Shown: piece by piece, positions 3,236 through 22,460 of the stretch
Layout of the letters: every line of letters starts with the position of its first letter
Position numbering within the stretch: the first letter of the stretch is position 1
Origin: a virus
Length of the DNA stretch: 22,460 bases
IMG/VR virus record: IMGVR_UViG_3300017697_000110
Span: 1 to 22,460 of that record
Strand: one strand, 5' to 3'
The notes under the pieces: model-generated
What the model was told of the DNA's origin: nothing
Database searches by the model: none
What the model saw: the letters and a program-made list of their open reading frames with translations, nothing else
Position numbers and translations under genes: made by a program

Positions 3236-3261
3236 AAGGGCCCTCCAGGGCCCTTTTTTTT
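3236..3261 (+). terminator. Rho-independent terminator after the capsid gene
   Basis: A perfect 6-bp GC stem, GGGCCC (3238-3243) with loop TCCA and GGGCCC (3248-3253), is followed by eight T residues (3254-3261). Two A residues before the stem can pair with the first Ts. It lies 45 bases after the capsid stop and just before a promoter-like site, so it should separate the head block from the accessory cassette. Confidence 0.9.
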
Positions 3262-3296
3262 GGCCTAAATTAATTACAAATTAAGTGTATAAATTG

Positions 3297-3325
3297 TTGT
3301 ACTTTTGTGCATAATTGTGCATAAT
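3297..3325 (+). promoter_or_regulatory. Candidate sigma-70 promoter for the accessory cassette
   Basis: TTGTAC (3297-3302) and CATAAT (3320-3325) are separated by exactly 17 bases, which suits a bacterial housekeeping sigma factor; the -10 box matches 5 of 6 consensus bases but the -35 box only 3. A start near 3332 would give a 5' leader of about 40 bases to the ATG at 3371, with GGAG at 3361-3364 as ribosome site. It lies directly after the terminator. The same layout recurs at 22275-22303. Confidence 0.55.
3305..3325. repeat. Two tandem 11-bp repeats overlapping the promoter
   Basis: TTGTGCATAAT occurs at 3305-3315 and again at 3315-3325, sharing one base, giving a 10-bp period, about one helix turn. 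The second copy contains the putative -10 box. Same-face repeats over a promoter are typical of operator sites for small dimeric repressors; which protein binds is unknown. Confidence 0.5.
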
Positions 3326-3370
3326 AGGTATGTGGGAATTGAAATTAAAAATAAAAAAACGGAGAAAAAT

Positions 3371-3625
3371 ATGACTGTCAATATAATTGAAGAAATCAAC
3401 AAAGCTGGCTTTACAGCTTTCCAACACCCTGGAGAGGGTATCAAGATCAGCTGCGAAGACGGCAAAGACGCTGGGATCTACTACCCAGATGATTGCCCGG
3501 AGTTTGACATCTACGACCAAGATCCCTGGATCAACCCAGAGGTTGTTAAAGTCTGCAAAGACAATGGTTACGAAGTTGACTGGCAAGATCCTGGTACTTT
3601 AACTGTTTACAAGGAGGTGGCGTAA
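3371..3625 (+). CDS. Small acidic protein of unknown function, first gene of accessory cassette
   Basis: I place the start at the ATG at 3371 (84 residues) because it follows GGAG with six-base spacing; a longer frame from 3305 would begin inside the promoter repeats. The protein is acidic and Asp/Tyr/Pro-rich, with segments HPGEGIKIS, GIYYPDDCPEFDIYDQDPW and an ending DWQDPGTLTVYKEVA. No signal peptide, membrane segment or metal site is obvious. It overlaps the next gene by one base (TAATG), preceded by a strong site AAGGAGGTGG at 3611-3620. I do not recognise a characterised family; small proteins of this style occur in phage and plasmid accessory regions. Confidence 0.7.
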   Translation: MTVNIIEEINKAGFTAFQHPGEGIKISCEDGKDAGIYYPDDCPEFDIYDQDPWINPEVVKVCKDNGYEVDWQDPGTLTVYKEVA

Positions 3626-4203
3626 TGACTATGACTAGAGAATTTTATATCCCAAAGGGATCTAAAGAAATAAAGGCTGCAAAAACAGACGCGGTAGCTT
3701 ACGTTGAGGATTGGGAGTGCGGGACCAAGTACACGGCCATGGTGTTCGGCGGCAAGAGATCTAAATATGACAAGTATTACGGTTTCAAAAACAAAGAGGC
3801 CAGAGACAATTATGTGATTAAGTATTTCACAGATCAAGAAAATGCAGCTCTTGCTAAAAAGAAACGTGCTGAACAAGCGAAAACGCAAGCCAAAGAAAAT
3901 CAAGCAAACTACCAAGTGGGTGATATTCTTGTTTCAAGTTGGGGTTACGATCAAACCAACATTGATTATTACCAAGTAATTGAGAGAACAGCTAAAATGG
4001 CCACCATTCAAAAAATTTGCAAAGAGTTTTTAGATTCTGGTTATCCTAGCGAAGATAAAGTGATCCCTCTTAAAGATTCTTTTGTTGGCAAGCCTAAGAA
4101 AAAGAAAATTGGGACTTACGGTATTACGATAAGCAGTTATGAGACTGCAAGTCTTTGGGACGGCAAACCCGACTATGAAACTGCTGCTGGTTGGGGTCAC
4201 TAA
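3625..4203 (+). CDS. Accessory protein with VGDILVSSWGYDQTN domain, unknown function
   Basis: This 192-residue protein is coupled to its neighbours by one-base overlaps on both sides. The N-terminal part (about 20-70) has AYVEDWECGTKYTAMVFGG then KYDKYYGFKNKEAR, followed by a Lys/Ala/Gln-rich helix. The second part begins QVGDILVSSWGYDQTNIDYY (about 97-116), a segment I associate with small accessory proteins of plasmids and phages, and ends SLWDGKPDYETAAGWGH. The VGD-W-Y pattern suggests a small beta barrel, but no catalytic residues are evident. It may modulate host or nucleic-acid processes; that is speculation from its position in a non-structural cassette. Confidence 0.7.
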   Translation: MTMTREFYIPKGSKEIKAAKTDAVAYVEDWECGTKYTAMVFGGKRSKYDKYYGFKNKEARDNYVIKYFTDQENAALAKKKRAEQAKTQAKENQANYQVGDILVSSWGYDQTNIDYYQVIERTAKMATIQKICKEFLDSGYPSEDKVIPLKDSFVGKPKKKKIGTYGITISSYETASLWDGKPDYETAAGWGH

Positions 4204-18028: not shown

Positions 18029-19479
18029 TGAGCAACCTAGTCAAAGATATTGATGTTTTCGCAAACGGTGGTGGTGTAGATCTAACTGATACAACCAACC
18101 AAATGTCTGAGCTAGGCAAAGCCATGATGACTCAGTTTAGCGATTACGACCAAAACTTAGAAAAATATCAAGAAAGATTGGCGCCTTTTGCTTATCAACC
18201 AAGCAAAATGAGCATCTATGATCTGGCTGCCGAACTCGGAGCTGGGTTACTCTCCACACCTAATACTGGCGGTGCCTCAGCTTACACCGGCTTAGGCGTT
18301 GGTTTTAACAGAGTTTCGGACAGATTGAGAGCTGCAAAAGCTGAAAATGAAAAAGCCAGGCAACAAATTGGTTTACAGGCTGCACAGATGGCCATGCAAG
18401 ATGAAAAATCAGCTCTTGAATTTATTAAAGAATACGAATTAAAAAACCTAGATTACAAAAATAAACGTGGAGATCTTTTAACATTTGAATACACAGACGC
18501 AAATGGAGATGTTGTCCAGCAAACAGTAAGAGATAACGTTGCCAACGATGACATTATTGACACGCTTATAAACGATAGAGGAGCTGTTGAAGTAAAAACC
18601 CCTGGCAGCATAGTTAATGTTGGTGGCGACCAAAAGGTTTCAAAGAGAGACGAAGAGGCAATCAAAAGACAATATGCAGCGGAGGATGAAATCTTAGCCA
18701 AACAAAGAGCTGGTGTTTCTAGTGTTGCTAATGTAAACGAGGCCATTGCTATTGCTGAAAGACTGGGCCCAGAAAACTTTGGTACTGTAGCTAAGGCTAC
18801 TTTATATCCTAGAAAATTATTAGATGGACTTGGTGTGACAGATGAAAACGCACAAAATATTTTGGGAGATCAAATTTTAATTAGCCAAATCTCTTTAGGT
18901 TTTACCATGGACATTGTAAGCAGAACCAAGGGTGCTATATCTAACCGTGAAATGGAAATGTTTGAAAGAGCGTCACCGGGCCTTGGGTCTAACTACAACG
19001 GTTTTATGAAACAGGCCGAGTATTTAAAAAGAGTTGCGCAAAGAGATGTTGATTTCTTTAACGCTTATACAGAAGAAGCTGACAGGCTAGAGGCTTTAGA
19101 AGATGCTGGTGAGTTGCGAGCCTCGCAGGTAAAAAGAAAATTAGATAAGTTCGAGGGCGATTGGTACAACGAAAACCTAATATTTAGCAAGGAAGAATTT
19201 GCAGAATTAGAGAAAATAGCAAAAGGCAATTACACGGATGAGGCTGGAATTACTTACACAACCCCAGAAGGGTTTAATGCAGATGAGTGGAGAAAAAAAT
19301 ACCGCGAAGGACAAGAGGCAAGTGGTGAACAAAAGTCTTCTTACACATTAGGTAAAACTCCTGCAATAGATTCTTTAAATAGAAAAAGACAACAAATACA
19401 AGCAAGAACAGATTTTACACCCGAGCAAAAAGAAACCCTGTTAGCGGCAATTGACAGCCAAATTAAGGCACTACAATGA
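18028..19479 (+). CDS. Internal virion / ejection protein, middle of three
   Basis: A GTG start inside the previous stop (TAGTG) gives 483 residues. Segments: an N-terminal polar part, a Gly-rich turn AAELGAGLLSTPNTGG with GASAYTGLGVGFNRVSDRLR, then a long Ala/Glu/Lys helix (about 96-145). A beta part (TFEYTDANGDVVQQTV) and mostly helical C-terminal half follow. Residues 300-319 read TKGAISNREMEMFERASPGL, the same motif that is repeated in the 715-residue protein upstream. Such G-x-I-S-x-x-E segments occur in many phage ejection and internal proteins as I recall. It should be packaged in the head and leave with the genome. It overlaps the next gene by four bases. Confidence 0.66.
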   Translation: MSNLVKDIDVFANGGGVDLTDTTNQMSELGKAMMTQFSDYDQNLEKYQERLAPFAYQPSKMSIYDLAAELGAGLLSTPNTGGASAYTGLGVGFNRVSDRLRAAKAENEKARQQIGLQAAQMAMQDEKSALEFIKEYELKNLDYKNKRGDLLTFEYTDANGDVVQQTVRDNVANDDIIDTLINDRGAVEVKTPGSIVNVGGDQKVSKRDEEAIKRQYAAEDEILAKQRAGVSSVANVNEAIAIAERLGPENFGTVAKATLYPRKLLDGLGVTDENAQNILGDQILISQISLGFTMDIVSRTKGAISNREMEMFERASPGLGSNYNGFMKQAEYLKRVAQRDVDFFNAYTEEADRLEALEDAGELRASQVKRKLDKFEGDWYNENLIFSKEEFAELEKIAKGNYTDEAGITYTTPEGFNADEWRKKYREGQEASGEQKSSYTLGKTPAIDSLNRKRQQIQARTDFTPEQKETLLAAIDSQIKALQ

Positions 19480-21818
19480 GCCAGCCAAGTTACGAAGACC
19501 TCATGCAAGACATCAACAAAACTGGTGAACTTGGTTTAGCGCAACAAAAAGAACAAGATAATTACACTATAAGAAAAGCTAAGTCACATTTATTTTTTGA
19601 TGATGATACAAGAATAGATTTTTTGGCAAGCGAACGTTTCCCTGGAGATCCTATGGGATCTATGAAATACGTCAACATTGATGGCGATTTGTATTACCAA
19701 AATCCTAACGGCGAAAAGGTTTTTAACGGTGCTAAGTACACAAAAGAGTTTCCCAACAATGAGGCTGTCGGTTTTTTTGGTGACAAACTCGTACCAAACT
19801 TAGTTCCAGCCTCAACTTTTGTAGCTGATGTTGGAGGCGGTATGGCTGGCGCAAAAGCTGGATTTAAAACTGGCCTGCGAATACTTGCAAACCCAGCAAA
19901 TCCTTTAAACAAAAATCCTTTTACTGCTGGAGCTGTTTTGTTGGGATCCACAGCGATTGGTGGTTTTGGTGGTAATTATTTTTTTGGCGGCCTAGCTCGA
20001 ACCGGGAGAGAGGCAACAATAGATCAGTTTTACAGCCTGCCACCGGAAGAAATTGCAGCTGCACACAACGATCTTTTGGTTTCGTCTGCATTTTCGTTAA
20101 TACCTTTTGGCCAAGGATCTGTTGGCACTGCTAAATTGTTAAATGTTTTTAACAAAGAACCAGACGCTTTAAGATACTTAGTCGAGCTAAGGGGCACCAC
20201 GGATGAAACTATACAAGAGGCAAAAAGACTTGGTTTTGACTTAACGCCTGCTCAAGCAGATCAAATTGGTAGTAGAGCTGCTGATTTACAATATTTTTTA
20301 AGTAGACAGCCAGACGCAAGACAAATTACACAATTTTATGACAGCCAGGCAACACAAATATCTGAGGCTATACAAGTTTTTGCCGATGAGATAGGCTCAC
20401 AATCTGGAAGAATTGCTGGCGATGTAAATGAAAGAATTGTTGACACAAGTAAAAAGGTGCTTGATGAGCTGGCTAGAAGAAGAAAAGAAAGAGCTACTAG
20501 GTTATACAACATACTTAAAGAGGCTCCGGAGGGTATCAAGGTCAATAACTTGGATTCTGTTATAGATCTTATAGACAGCAAAATAGCTGGTGAAGTTTTA
20601 GATGAATCTGGAAAATTAATAAGAGTGGTTGAACCTGCTGAAACAACAGTCAAAAATTTAGAAAAATTCAAAAAAATATTTTACAAAGAAGACGGTACCT
20701 TAGTTGATGATCTTATGGAGCTAGACGCAAGAAGAACCACGGAAATGAAACAGTTAGCGTTAAAACTCCAGGGCAAAGGCACTGGGGATGCTGGAACTAT
20801 TTTTGGCATCATGGACAACATGACTTCTTTAATGGATGAGGCTGCTCCCATGTATAGACAGGCTAGAAGAGTTTATGACCCTAACAAACCTGCTTTACAG
20901 TTAATTGAAAAAAGTGCAATCGGCAAGTTTGGTAAAATAATGACAGATAAGCAAACAGCAACCGCCATGAAGAATTTGTTTGATCCCAATGTTTCTACAA
21001 AATCTTTAAGAAACGCAAAAAGAATTTTAAAGACCGCAGATCCAGAACTATTTAAAGACATAAAAAAACAGTTTATTTTAGATCAATACGATAAATTTTT
21101 TAGAGCTGAGGCCTTGCAAAAAGGTATGCCTCAATTACAAAAGTATTTTGGCAGCAATAGAGTTAAAGATATGATGCAAGAAATGTTAGAGCCAGAAGAA
21201 TTTGCAAACTTATACAAAATGAATGAGCTTATGGGTATGGCTTTTAAAATACCGACTTCTGGTTCTGCAACTCAACCACTTACTGAGACGGCAGGTCAGT
21301 TAGCTTATGAAGGCTTAAAAGGTAAAACTAAGGCGGCCCAGCTCGCAATGGCTTTGATAAATTTGCCAGGAAGAATATTTCAAGGAAAATTTGGTGAAGA
21401 GGTTGTAGGAAGAATAGCCAAAGATCAACAGCAGGGTTACTTAAATGTTCTTACAGATCAACTGCTTGCAGATCCAGATGCAGCAAAATCATTGGATGAG
21501 GTTTATAACTTTTTTAACACCAATGAGTTTATGATAAAACAAATGGGTTTAAGAGGTGGCGCTGAGGGTTTTGAAAACTTAACTGAGCCAAGCGTTCAAC
21601 CATATACAGGAGGCGATCAGCCTGCCGAGCAACAAAGCTATGAAAGTATATTACAAGAAATAAATTCTTTAAGTTCAGAGCCAGTGGCTATGAATACGAC
21701 TCAACAAGTGGGAGGTTCCGAGCTTTCCATACCAGAAATGACATCTTCAACAATATTGCCAAATGAAATGGATCGAGAGATTGCTATGAGAAAATCTGGT
21801 ATTGGTTCTTTAGTCTAA
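19476..21818 (+). CDS. Large internal virion / ejection protein, last of three
   Basis: This 780-residue protein starts in the previous stop (ATGA). After a polar N-terminus it has a Gly/Ala-rich hydrophobic part at about 105-175 (FVADVGGGMAGAKAGF, AVLLGSTAIGGFGGNYFFGG) that could insert into membranes. Residues about 235-700 are long helices of a coiled, charged type (SQATQISEAIQVFADEIG; KKVLDELARRRKERATRLYN), resembling the helical body of P22 gp16 or T7 gp16. No lytic transglycosylase Glu motif is visible. The motif SYEDLMQDIN at residues 5-14 recurs as SYESILQEIN at 721-730. The gene ends 9 bases inside a convergent gene on the other strand. Role inferred from size, composition and position. 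Confidence 0.68.
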   Translation: MSQPSYEDLMQDINKTGELGLAQQKEQDNYTIRKAKSHLFFDDDTRIDFLASERFPGDPMGSMKYVNIDGDLYYQNPNGEKVFNGAKYTKEFPNNEAVGFFGDKLVPNLVPASTFVADVGGGMAGAKAGFKTGLRILANPANPLNKNPFTAGAVLLGSTAIGGFGGNYFFGGLARTGREATIDQFYSLPPEEIAAAHNDLLVSSAFSLIPFGQGSVGTAKLLNVFNKEPDALRYLVELRGTTDETIQEAKRLGFDLTPAQADQIGSRAADLQYFLSRQPDARQITQFYDSQATQISEAIQVFADEIGSQSGRIAGDVNERIVDTSKKVLDELARRRKERATRLYNILKEAPEGIKVNNLDSVIDLIDSKIAGEVLDESGKLIRVVEPAETTVKNLEKFKKIFYKEDGTLVDDLMELDARRTTEMKQLALKLQGKGTGDAGTIFGIMDNMTSLMDEAAPMYRQARRVYDPNKPALQLIEKSAIGKFGKIMTDKQTATAMKNLFDPNVSTKSLRNAKRILKTADPELFKDIKKQFILDQYDKFFRAEALQKGMPQLQKYFGSNRVKDMMQEMLEPEEFANLYKMNELMGMAFKIPTSGSATQPLTETAGQLAYEGLKGKTKAAQLAMALINLPGRIFQGKFGEEVVGRIAKDQQQGYLNVLTDQLLADPDAAKSLDEVYNFFNTNEFMIKQMGLRGGAEGFENLTEPSVQPYTGGDQPAEQQSYESILQEINSLSSEPVAMNTTQQVGGSELSIPEMTSSTILPNEMDREIAMRKSGIGSLV

Positions 21819-22043
21819 GGACTCGGTGGCCTGGATCATGGCCCCAACAACTTCATAATCTAATTCATATCCCATGTGGGATTCATCGTTGAGGACTATC
21901 TCCAGGTTTCTGGATATAAGTCTTAACAACGCGGCCTGTTGATGCAAGGTAAGTCTGCTGAACAGCTCAATGACTTCCGGCGCCTCAAGCACAGGTTTAT
22001 AAGATTGAGGTTTAGTTTTTTGGGACATAATGTTTTTAAACAT
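21810..22043 (-). CDS. Small helical protein downstream of repressor-like gene, unknown
   Basis: The 77-residue product is translated leftwards and overlaps the stop of the RHH-like gene by one base (TAATG on that strand), so the two are probably co-expressed and coupled; a second Met at residue 6 is a weaker start. After a polar N-terminus the core APEVIELFSRLTLHQQAALL through RLISRNLEIVLND is helical, with a short acidic C-terminus (MGYELDYEVVGAMIQATES). No DNA-binding helix pair, toxin or signal motif is recognised. The gene overlaps the 3' end of the rightward ejection-protein gene by 9 bases. It may assist the upstream regulator. Confidence 0.62.
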   Translation of the reverse strand: MFKNIMSQKTKPQSYKPVLEAPEVIELFSRLTLHQQAALLRLISRNLEIVLNDESHMGYELDYEVVGAMIQATESLD

Positions 22044-22267
22044 TAGATCTTAACAGTAGATCCAGGACCTTCAACGGCAACCCTGTGCTCTTCTCTTGCA
22101 AAAGAATCATGCTTTTTTAACCTTGCATGTTCTTTTTCAATTAAAACTTTTAGCTGATCTATTTTGGATCTGCGTTCCATATCGCATATTTCTTGCAGAA
22201 GATCATAAGTTTTAACATCTACTGCCAAACTTTTTCTCATTTTATTATTTTCGGTGTGTATATCCAT
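22043..22267 (-). CDS. Ribbon-helix-helix DNA-binding protein, probable repressor
   Basis: Using the ATG at 22267 the protein has 74 residues; an upstream ATG at 22294 lies within the promoter palindrome and the third candidate is at 22240. None has a good ribosome site; 22267 sits where the leftward promoter would start transcription, suggesting a leaderless message. Residues 11-18 (RKSLAVDV) form the beta strand, 19-32 (KTYDLLQEICDMER) the first helix, and 34-49 (SKIDQLKVLIEKEHAR) the second helix of an Arc/MetJ/CopG-like ribbon-helix-helix fold; the C-terminus is a charged tail. RHH dimers bind short palindromes, so it should bind the inverted repeat at 22273-22304 and control both divergent promoters. 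Fold by eye; target inferred. Confidence 0.66.
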   Translation of the reverse strand: MDIHTENNKMRKSLAVDVKTYDLLQEICDMERRSKIDQLKVLIEKEHARLKKHDSFAREEHRVAVEGPGSTVKI

Positions 22268-22272
22268 GGACG

Positions 22273-22304
22273 AATTGTATACGCTTTTGCACATATATAC
22301 AATT
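22273..22304. promoter_or_regulatory. Symmetric divergent promoter and operator palindrome
   Basis: AATTGTATA (22273-22281) and TATACAATT (22296-22304) form a perfect 9-bp inverted repeat around a 14-bp spacer; arm starts are 23 bp apart, about two helix turns. Rightward, TTGTAT (22275-22280) and TACAAT (22298-22303) are 17 bp apart. Leftward, the mirror gives TTGTAT (22302-22297) and TACAAT (22279-22274), again 17 bp. Each -10 matches 5 of 6 consensus bases and each -35 only 3. The two promoters overlap completely, so polymerase can occupy only one at a time, and a repressor bound to either arm should block both. Confidence 0.6.
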
Positions 22305-22338
22305 AATTATTAAAAAATGTATGATAAACTAATTCACC

Positions 22339-22460
22339 ATGTATAAGCTAAAAAATTATCTTCTCAGCATGCAATCCCACTGGATGATTAACCAGGCAAC
22401 CTATGATGCTGTCCAGGAGACAATCCCTTTGGTTGCAAAATATGTTGCAGCTAACGGCAT
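22339..22460 (+). CDS. Truncated rightward gene, N-terminus only, unrecognised
   Basis: An open frame begins with ATG at 22339 and runs off the window end; 40 codons are visible (MYKLKNYLLSMQSHWMINQA then TYDAVQETIPLVAKYVAANG). It begins about 29 bases after the predicted start point of the rightward promoter and lacks a clear ribosome site. The first residues are faintly like the start of S49-type phage proteases (KLKNYLLS, W, I), but too little is present to assign. Its divergent arrangement with the RHH gene suggests it is under that regulator's control. Confidence 0.45.
   Translation, partial: MYKLKNYLLSMQSHWMINQATYDAVQETIPLVAKYVAANG

Follow-up and report, generated by a model that had tools for sequence, protein, structure and literature searches.

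A divergent control region with back-to-back promoters and a probable RHH-like autorepressor in an uncultured marine phage

Near the end of a 22,460-bp IMG/VR entry, the whole of which was analysed here (the window), two short promoter-like elements of opposite orientation occupy the same bases, which raises the question of whether one inverted repeat can serve as two mirror-image promoters. The repeat itself is as perfect as the preliminary description had it: the arms AATTGTATA (22273–22281) and TATACAATT (22296–22304) are exact reverse complements lying 14 bp apart. The claim that both strands read TTGTAT, 17 bp, TACAAT is also confirmed, each hexamer pair being exact in the window (22275–22280 and 22298–22303 on the plus strand, 22302–22297 and 22279–22274 on the minus strand). 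The DNA comes from a tailed phage known only as uncultured, and its major capsid protein, judged by sequence, resembles those of HTVC023P-type marine phages, with about 60% identity to the capsids of Pelagibacter phage HTVC023P and phage DSL-LC04. The reading favoured here, with a probability of roughly 0.65, is that of a divergent control region with separate back-to-back promoters, predicted leaderless mRNAs, and an RHH-like autorepressor with a second box-bearing promoter. The idea of a divergent region beside a likely repressor was right, but the mirror as its mechanism is wrong on present evidence.

As a generic feature, a perfect 9-bp inverted repeat is weak. The window holds six of them with loops of up to 40 bp, compared to one to eight in ten Markov shuffles, and 10% of the 130-bp shuffles of the AT-rich repeat region contain one. 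The full two-arm pattern occurs a single time in the record, and its chance expectation with up to three mismatches is 0.02, for a pattern that was picked after being seen. Each of the two promoters matches 8 of 12 consensus positions; neither was listed by a sigma-70 scan of the window, and an Rfam search of the window gave no match. Since perfect repeats of this length are not rare in the window, the case depends on relatives rather than on chance arguments.

Relatives were gathered by an IMG/VR scan with the RHH-like protein as the query, which yielded 80 loci (81 with the window). Nearly all of them hold, in divergent orientation, a 2OG-Fe(II) oxygenase gene and the RHH-like gene, the latter followed by a gene for a partner of 72–89 aa. 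The motif TTGyAw–17 bp–TAnAmT precedes the RHH-like gene in 77 of the 81 loci, including the window and corresponding to 50 distinct segments, while two of the four loci without it end at a contig edge. The TTG and positions 1, 2, 4, and 6 of the -10 (T, A, A, and T) are invariant among distinct segments; most of these bases were demanded by the search pattern itself, and the independent facts are the presence of the promoter and the constant 17-bp spacer. The spacing pointed out in the preliminary description is, for the minus-strand promoter, invariant in relatives.

The RHH-like ATG lies 6–7 nt past the -10 in about two-thirds of the distinct loci (6 nt in the window), so that transcription from TTGTAT-17-TACAAT on the minus strand is predicted to start at this ATG (22267) and to give a leaderless mRNA. 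Starts of the RHH-like protein at 22294 or 22241 were rejected, as the relatives align at 22267. Another clade shows a leader of 15–43 nt, beginning with ATACCAAAC, ahead of the RHH-like gene, and in three loci of a compact clade (L041, L047, and L051) the ATG past the -10 does not share the frame of the RHH-like gene and begins a mini-ORF close to the start of that gene.

The gene on the plus strand has a conserved promoter element of its own, some 25 bases away. Its assignment as an oxygenase is based on the match of the counterpart in the relative L003 (2243–2956) to PHROG 61 (1e-27), and the protein has the same length in L003, L006, and L074. An extended -10 of the form TGnTAnAmT is located 6–8 nt ahead of the oxygenase ATG in 30 out of 38 distinct loci, including the full-consensus forms TGCTATAAT and TGTTATAAT, and is missing from eight loci of the compact clade. 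Owing to this short gap, the oxygenase mRNA is also predicted to be leaderless, with transcription from TGATAAACT starting at or beside the ATG at 22339. The features of the window are collected in Table 1.

Table 1. Features of the control region and of the second promoter, with positions in the window.
Feature	Position	Strand	Basis
2OG-Fe(II) oxygenase gene start; 237 aa in relatives, cut by window end	22339..22460	+	L003 2243-2956
Extended -10 TGATAAACT, oxygenase gene	22322..22330	+	TGnTAnAmT in relatives
-35 hexamer TTGTAT, promoter of RHH-like gene	22297..22302	-	TTGyAw kept in 77/81 loci
-10 hexamer TACAAT, same promoter, 17-bp spacer	22274..22279	-	TAnAmT in 50/50 distinct segments
Perfect 9-bp inverted repeat, 14-bp centre	22273..22304	both	sequence
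Candidate RHH operator: TGTA 22301-22298 and TGCA 22291-22288, 10 bp apart	22288..22301	-	predicted binding
RHH-like protein, 74 aa, predicted leaderless, ATG 6 nt past -10	22043..22267	-	weak RHH_1 / Arc-like matches
77-aa partner protein	21810..22043	-	conserved downstream neighbour; start overlaps RHH-like stop (TAATG)
Terminator-like hairpin and T run, past major capsid gene	3236..3261	+	-17.2 kcal/mol, sequence
Second promoter with TGyA boxes, TTGTAC-17-CATAAT, behind capsid gene	3297..3325	+	19.1-bit model match
Predicted leaderless GTG 6 nt past -10; in-frame tag with GGAG; ATG at 3371	3332..3373	+	sequence

The preliminary description proposed instead that two identical promoters share the 32 bp in opposite directions, exclude each other, and are both silenced by one RHH protein, an arrangement that now appears distinctly unlikely. 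Neither hexamer pair has a mismatch in the window, and both are kept in 9 of the 50 distinct segments, all of them near the window. However, the last T of the mirror -10 is lost in 38 of the 50 and the mirror -35 TTGTAT in 41, most segments having TTCTAT or TTTTAT in its place, and all nine arm pairs are intact in only three. Relatives thus retain the RHH-like gene while the arms are lost, an outcome that the preliminary description had itself named as refuting its model. The G of TTG is complementary to the third base of the -10 in 11% of the distinct segments, due to the use of TAGAAT by most relatives. Overall arm pairing (0.671) is slightly higher than in column shuffles (0.625), an excess that can be explained by shared ancestry. 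A bidirectional mirror promoter implies conservation of both directions over the same bases, which is not observed, and the oxygenase gene owns a separate conserved -10. For these reasons (hexamer loss, the separate oxygenase -10, and poor arm pairing), the mirror promoter was rejected as a conserved unit. The perfect mirror of the window arises because its clade uses TACAAT as the -10, with flanking bases that supply the rest of the match to TTGTAT. This shows how an eye-catching perfect repeat can come about as a side effect of a single ordinary promoter. What comes closest to the mirror idea, and counts in its favour, is seen in the compact clade (L034, L035, L036, L041, L047, L051, L055, and L063): the two start codons leave so little room there that the divergent promoters are bound to overlap, yet these are not mirror images.

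The RHH-like protein encoded next to the two promoters is the candidate regulator. The RHH_1 profile is covered nearly in full, with E values of 0.085 for the window protein and 0.056 for the consensus, and with 13–14 bits against a cut-off of 20.5, so that the curated family cut-off is not reached. An Arc-like repressor PHROG is the best match in 11 of 29 members, at a marginal E value of 0.016. A PDB profile search gave no credible match, and nothing came from hhalign against CopG, Arc, and Mnt, of whose sequences that of CopG alone was checked against the PDB. The monomer model consists of one long helix (residues 18–65) without the RHH turn. The family pattern RKSLAVDxxTYxLL...RSKIDQLKVLI was judged by eye to be right for RHH, hence the label RHH-like. 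Of the control region beside a probable RHH gene that had been proposed, the divergent promoters and an RHH-like neighbour stand, whereas the sequence points weakly to RHH identity. Neither this protein nor the 77-aa partner matches any phage record, leaving the regulator without a detected relative among 50,697 phage records, and a search of bacterial genomes confirmed no relatives. The end of the partner gene overlaps the end of a convergent 780-aa gene (19476–21818). In the close relative L003, an inserted small HNH endonuclease gene (3482–3733) separates the partner gene from the cluster of structural genes.

The spacer of the RHH-like promoters is conserved, whereas promoter spacers usually drift. 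It contains one of a pair of TGyA boxes, at offset +11 (35 of 50 promoters); the other, at +1 (47 of 50), lies over the minus-strand -35, and its conservation is partly that of the promoter. These boxes seem a likelier operator than the two arms, which were rejected in this role since they vary where the boxes persist. With the window clade left out of its training, a promoter–operator model still gives two strong matches in the window, the RHH-like promoter (25.9 bits) and a second promoter behind the capsid gene, whereas the maxima in shuffles average 10.1 bits and reach 17.4 at the highest. Sites of this second class, which follow either the capsid gene or the oxygenase gene, amount to 24 distinct ones including that of the window. 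Their search required the box at +1 but not the one at +11, which is nevertheless present in all 24, with a third box at -9 in 14 of them. Of 35 contigs, 20 carry the strict box pattern and none carries its reversed control. One further 26-bit match in the relative L096 (17641–17669), with an ATG 7 nt past the -10, was set aside, as a large reading frame on the opposite strand spans it.

The RHH-like protein would probably bind these boxes, one helical turn apart in the -35 and spacer of its own promoter, and thereby repress itself, while the same boxes at 3297–3325 would extend its action to a small regulon. Binding is made plausible by the likeness of the boxes to the hexad [A/T]TGT[A/C]A recognised by RelB, a known RHH repressor (PMC2812701). 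Alternatively, the conserved spacer might belong to a promoter that a specific sigma factor or activator, encoded by host or phage, recognises, without the RHH-like protein being bound. The constant location of the boxes within promoters, one of them overlapping the -35, and the weak RHH identity are consistent with this explanation, which is nonetheless unlikely: the oxygenase promoter of the same region is devoid of boxes, their sequence resembles the RelB hexad, and a related pattern has no hit in around 100 kb of HTVC023P, HTVC027P, and CRP-902, three phages that share the capsid but lack the RHH-like gene. For the second-class sites, the regulator could be another protein. The two-gene operon could also be viewed as a toxin–antitoxin module, in which the RHH-like protein would be the antitoxin and the 77-aa protein the toxin, both under a promoter that they autoregulate, as two small adjacent or overlapping genes with the RHH-like one in first place and a candidate operator in their own promoter would suggest. 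However, the partner of a type II system is expected to belong to a known toxin family, and the 77-aa protein matches no toxin, nor any other family or fold; moreover, the gene pair is near-invariant within one phage group. Such a module is very improbable. Autorepression through the TGyA boxes thus remains the preferred reading, and in place of the mirror it offers a regulator, an operator, and a small regulon that can be tested, in a group of uncultured marine phages.

Several elements of this model are already known from other systems, such as divergent leaderless phage regulators (PMC4488713), RHH autorepression (PMC2812701), and bidirectional promoters (PMC12825309). One likeness is to RelB of the E. 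coli relBE system, which, like the putative repressor of the window, is a small repressor of its own two-gene operon, and whose repeats are much like TTGyA (PMC2812701). However, its operator relO comprises four adjacent hexads in 12-bp palindromes (PMC2812701), while the TGyA boxes stand 10 bp apart. The systems also differ in that no search identified the partner as a RelE-like toxin, and in that a second operator-bearing promoter is present in the phage. On the other hand, the cI/cro region of phage PY54, as well as cI of lambda, exemplifies divergent regulatory genes with leaderless mRNAs and a repressor site between them (PMC4488713). The region studied here shares the divergent leaderless layout of PY54 with a candidate repressor site, its leaderless state being predicted from sequence. 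Those repressors are of the helix-turn-helix type, whereas in the window the gene opposite that of the RHH-like protein encodes an oxygenase, and the phage is not known to form lysogens. Arc and Mnt of phage P22 and CopG of pMV158 are small RHH repressors working at their own promoters, as documented for CopG autorepression (PMC6607859). The likeness to them is limited to this arrangement: no sequence-level link was found, and the RHH-like protein lacks the glycine conserved in the turn of CopG. Finally, E. coli bidirectional promoters are short sequences that RNA polymerase could read both ways, one binding event excluding the other (PMC12825309). They share their -10 and commonly start 18 bp apart (PMC12825309), whereas the promoters here are separate, with predicted starts at a distance of about 70 bp.

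The second-class promoters show a conserved layout past the -10. An ATG or GTG follows 6 nt after this element and opens a conserved tag (GTG GGA AAT or ATT ...) of 12–14 codons, which holds the Shine-Dalgarno of the next start codon. Read by eye, the tag shares the frame of the downstream gene, which differs between sites, at 19 of 23 distinct sites, and in the remaining four it ends at the next start or just within it; an automatic count of 16 out of 24 sometimes took the wrong ATG and was replaced by the reading by eye. This suggests that second-class mRNAs are translated from both starts, and messages of this recurrent kind, with a leaderless start and a Shine-Dalgarno tag in frame, would lend themselves naturally to tests of dual translation initiation. 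It can be proposed tentatively, as a generalisation that may well not hold, that in a widespread group of uncultured marine phages an RHH-like repressor acting on TGyA boxes with a 10-bp step controls leaderless-start promoters, the second class of which is dual-start. The layout of boxes, leaderless start, and tag recurs in the window (3236–3373) and in L074, L080, L090–L095, and L098. A 46-kb relative, L097, additionally encodes a 271-aa protein (416–1231) that looks by eye like a serine recombinase and might bear on lifestyle.
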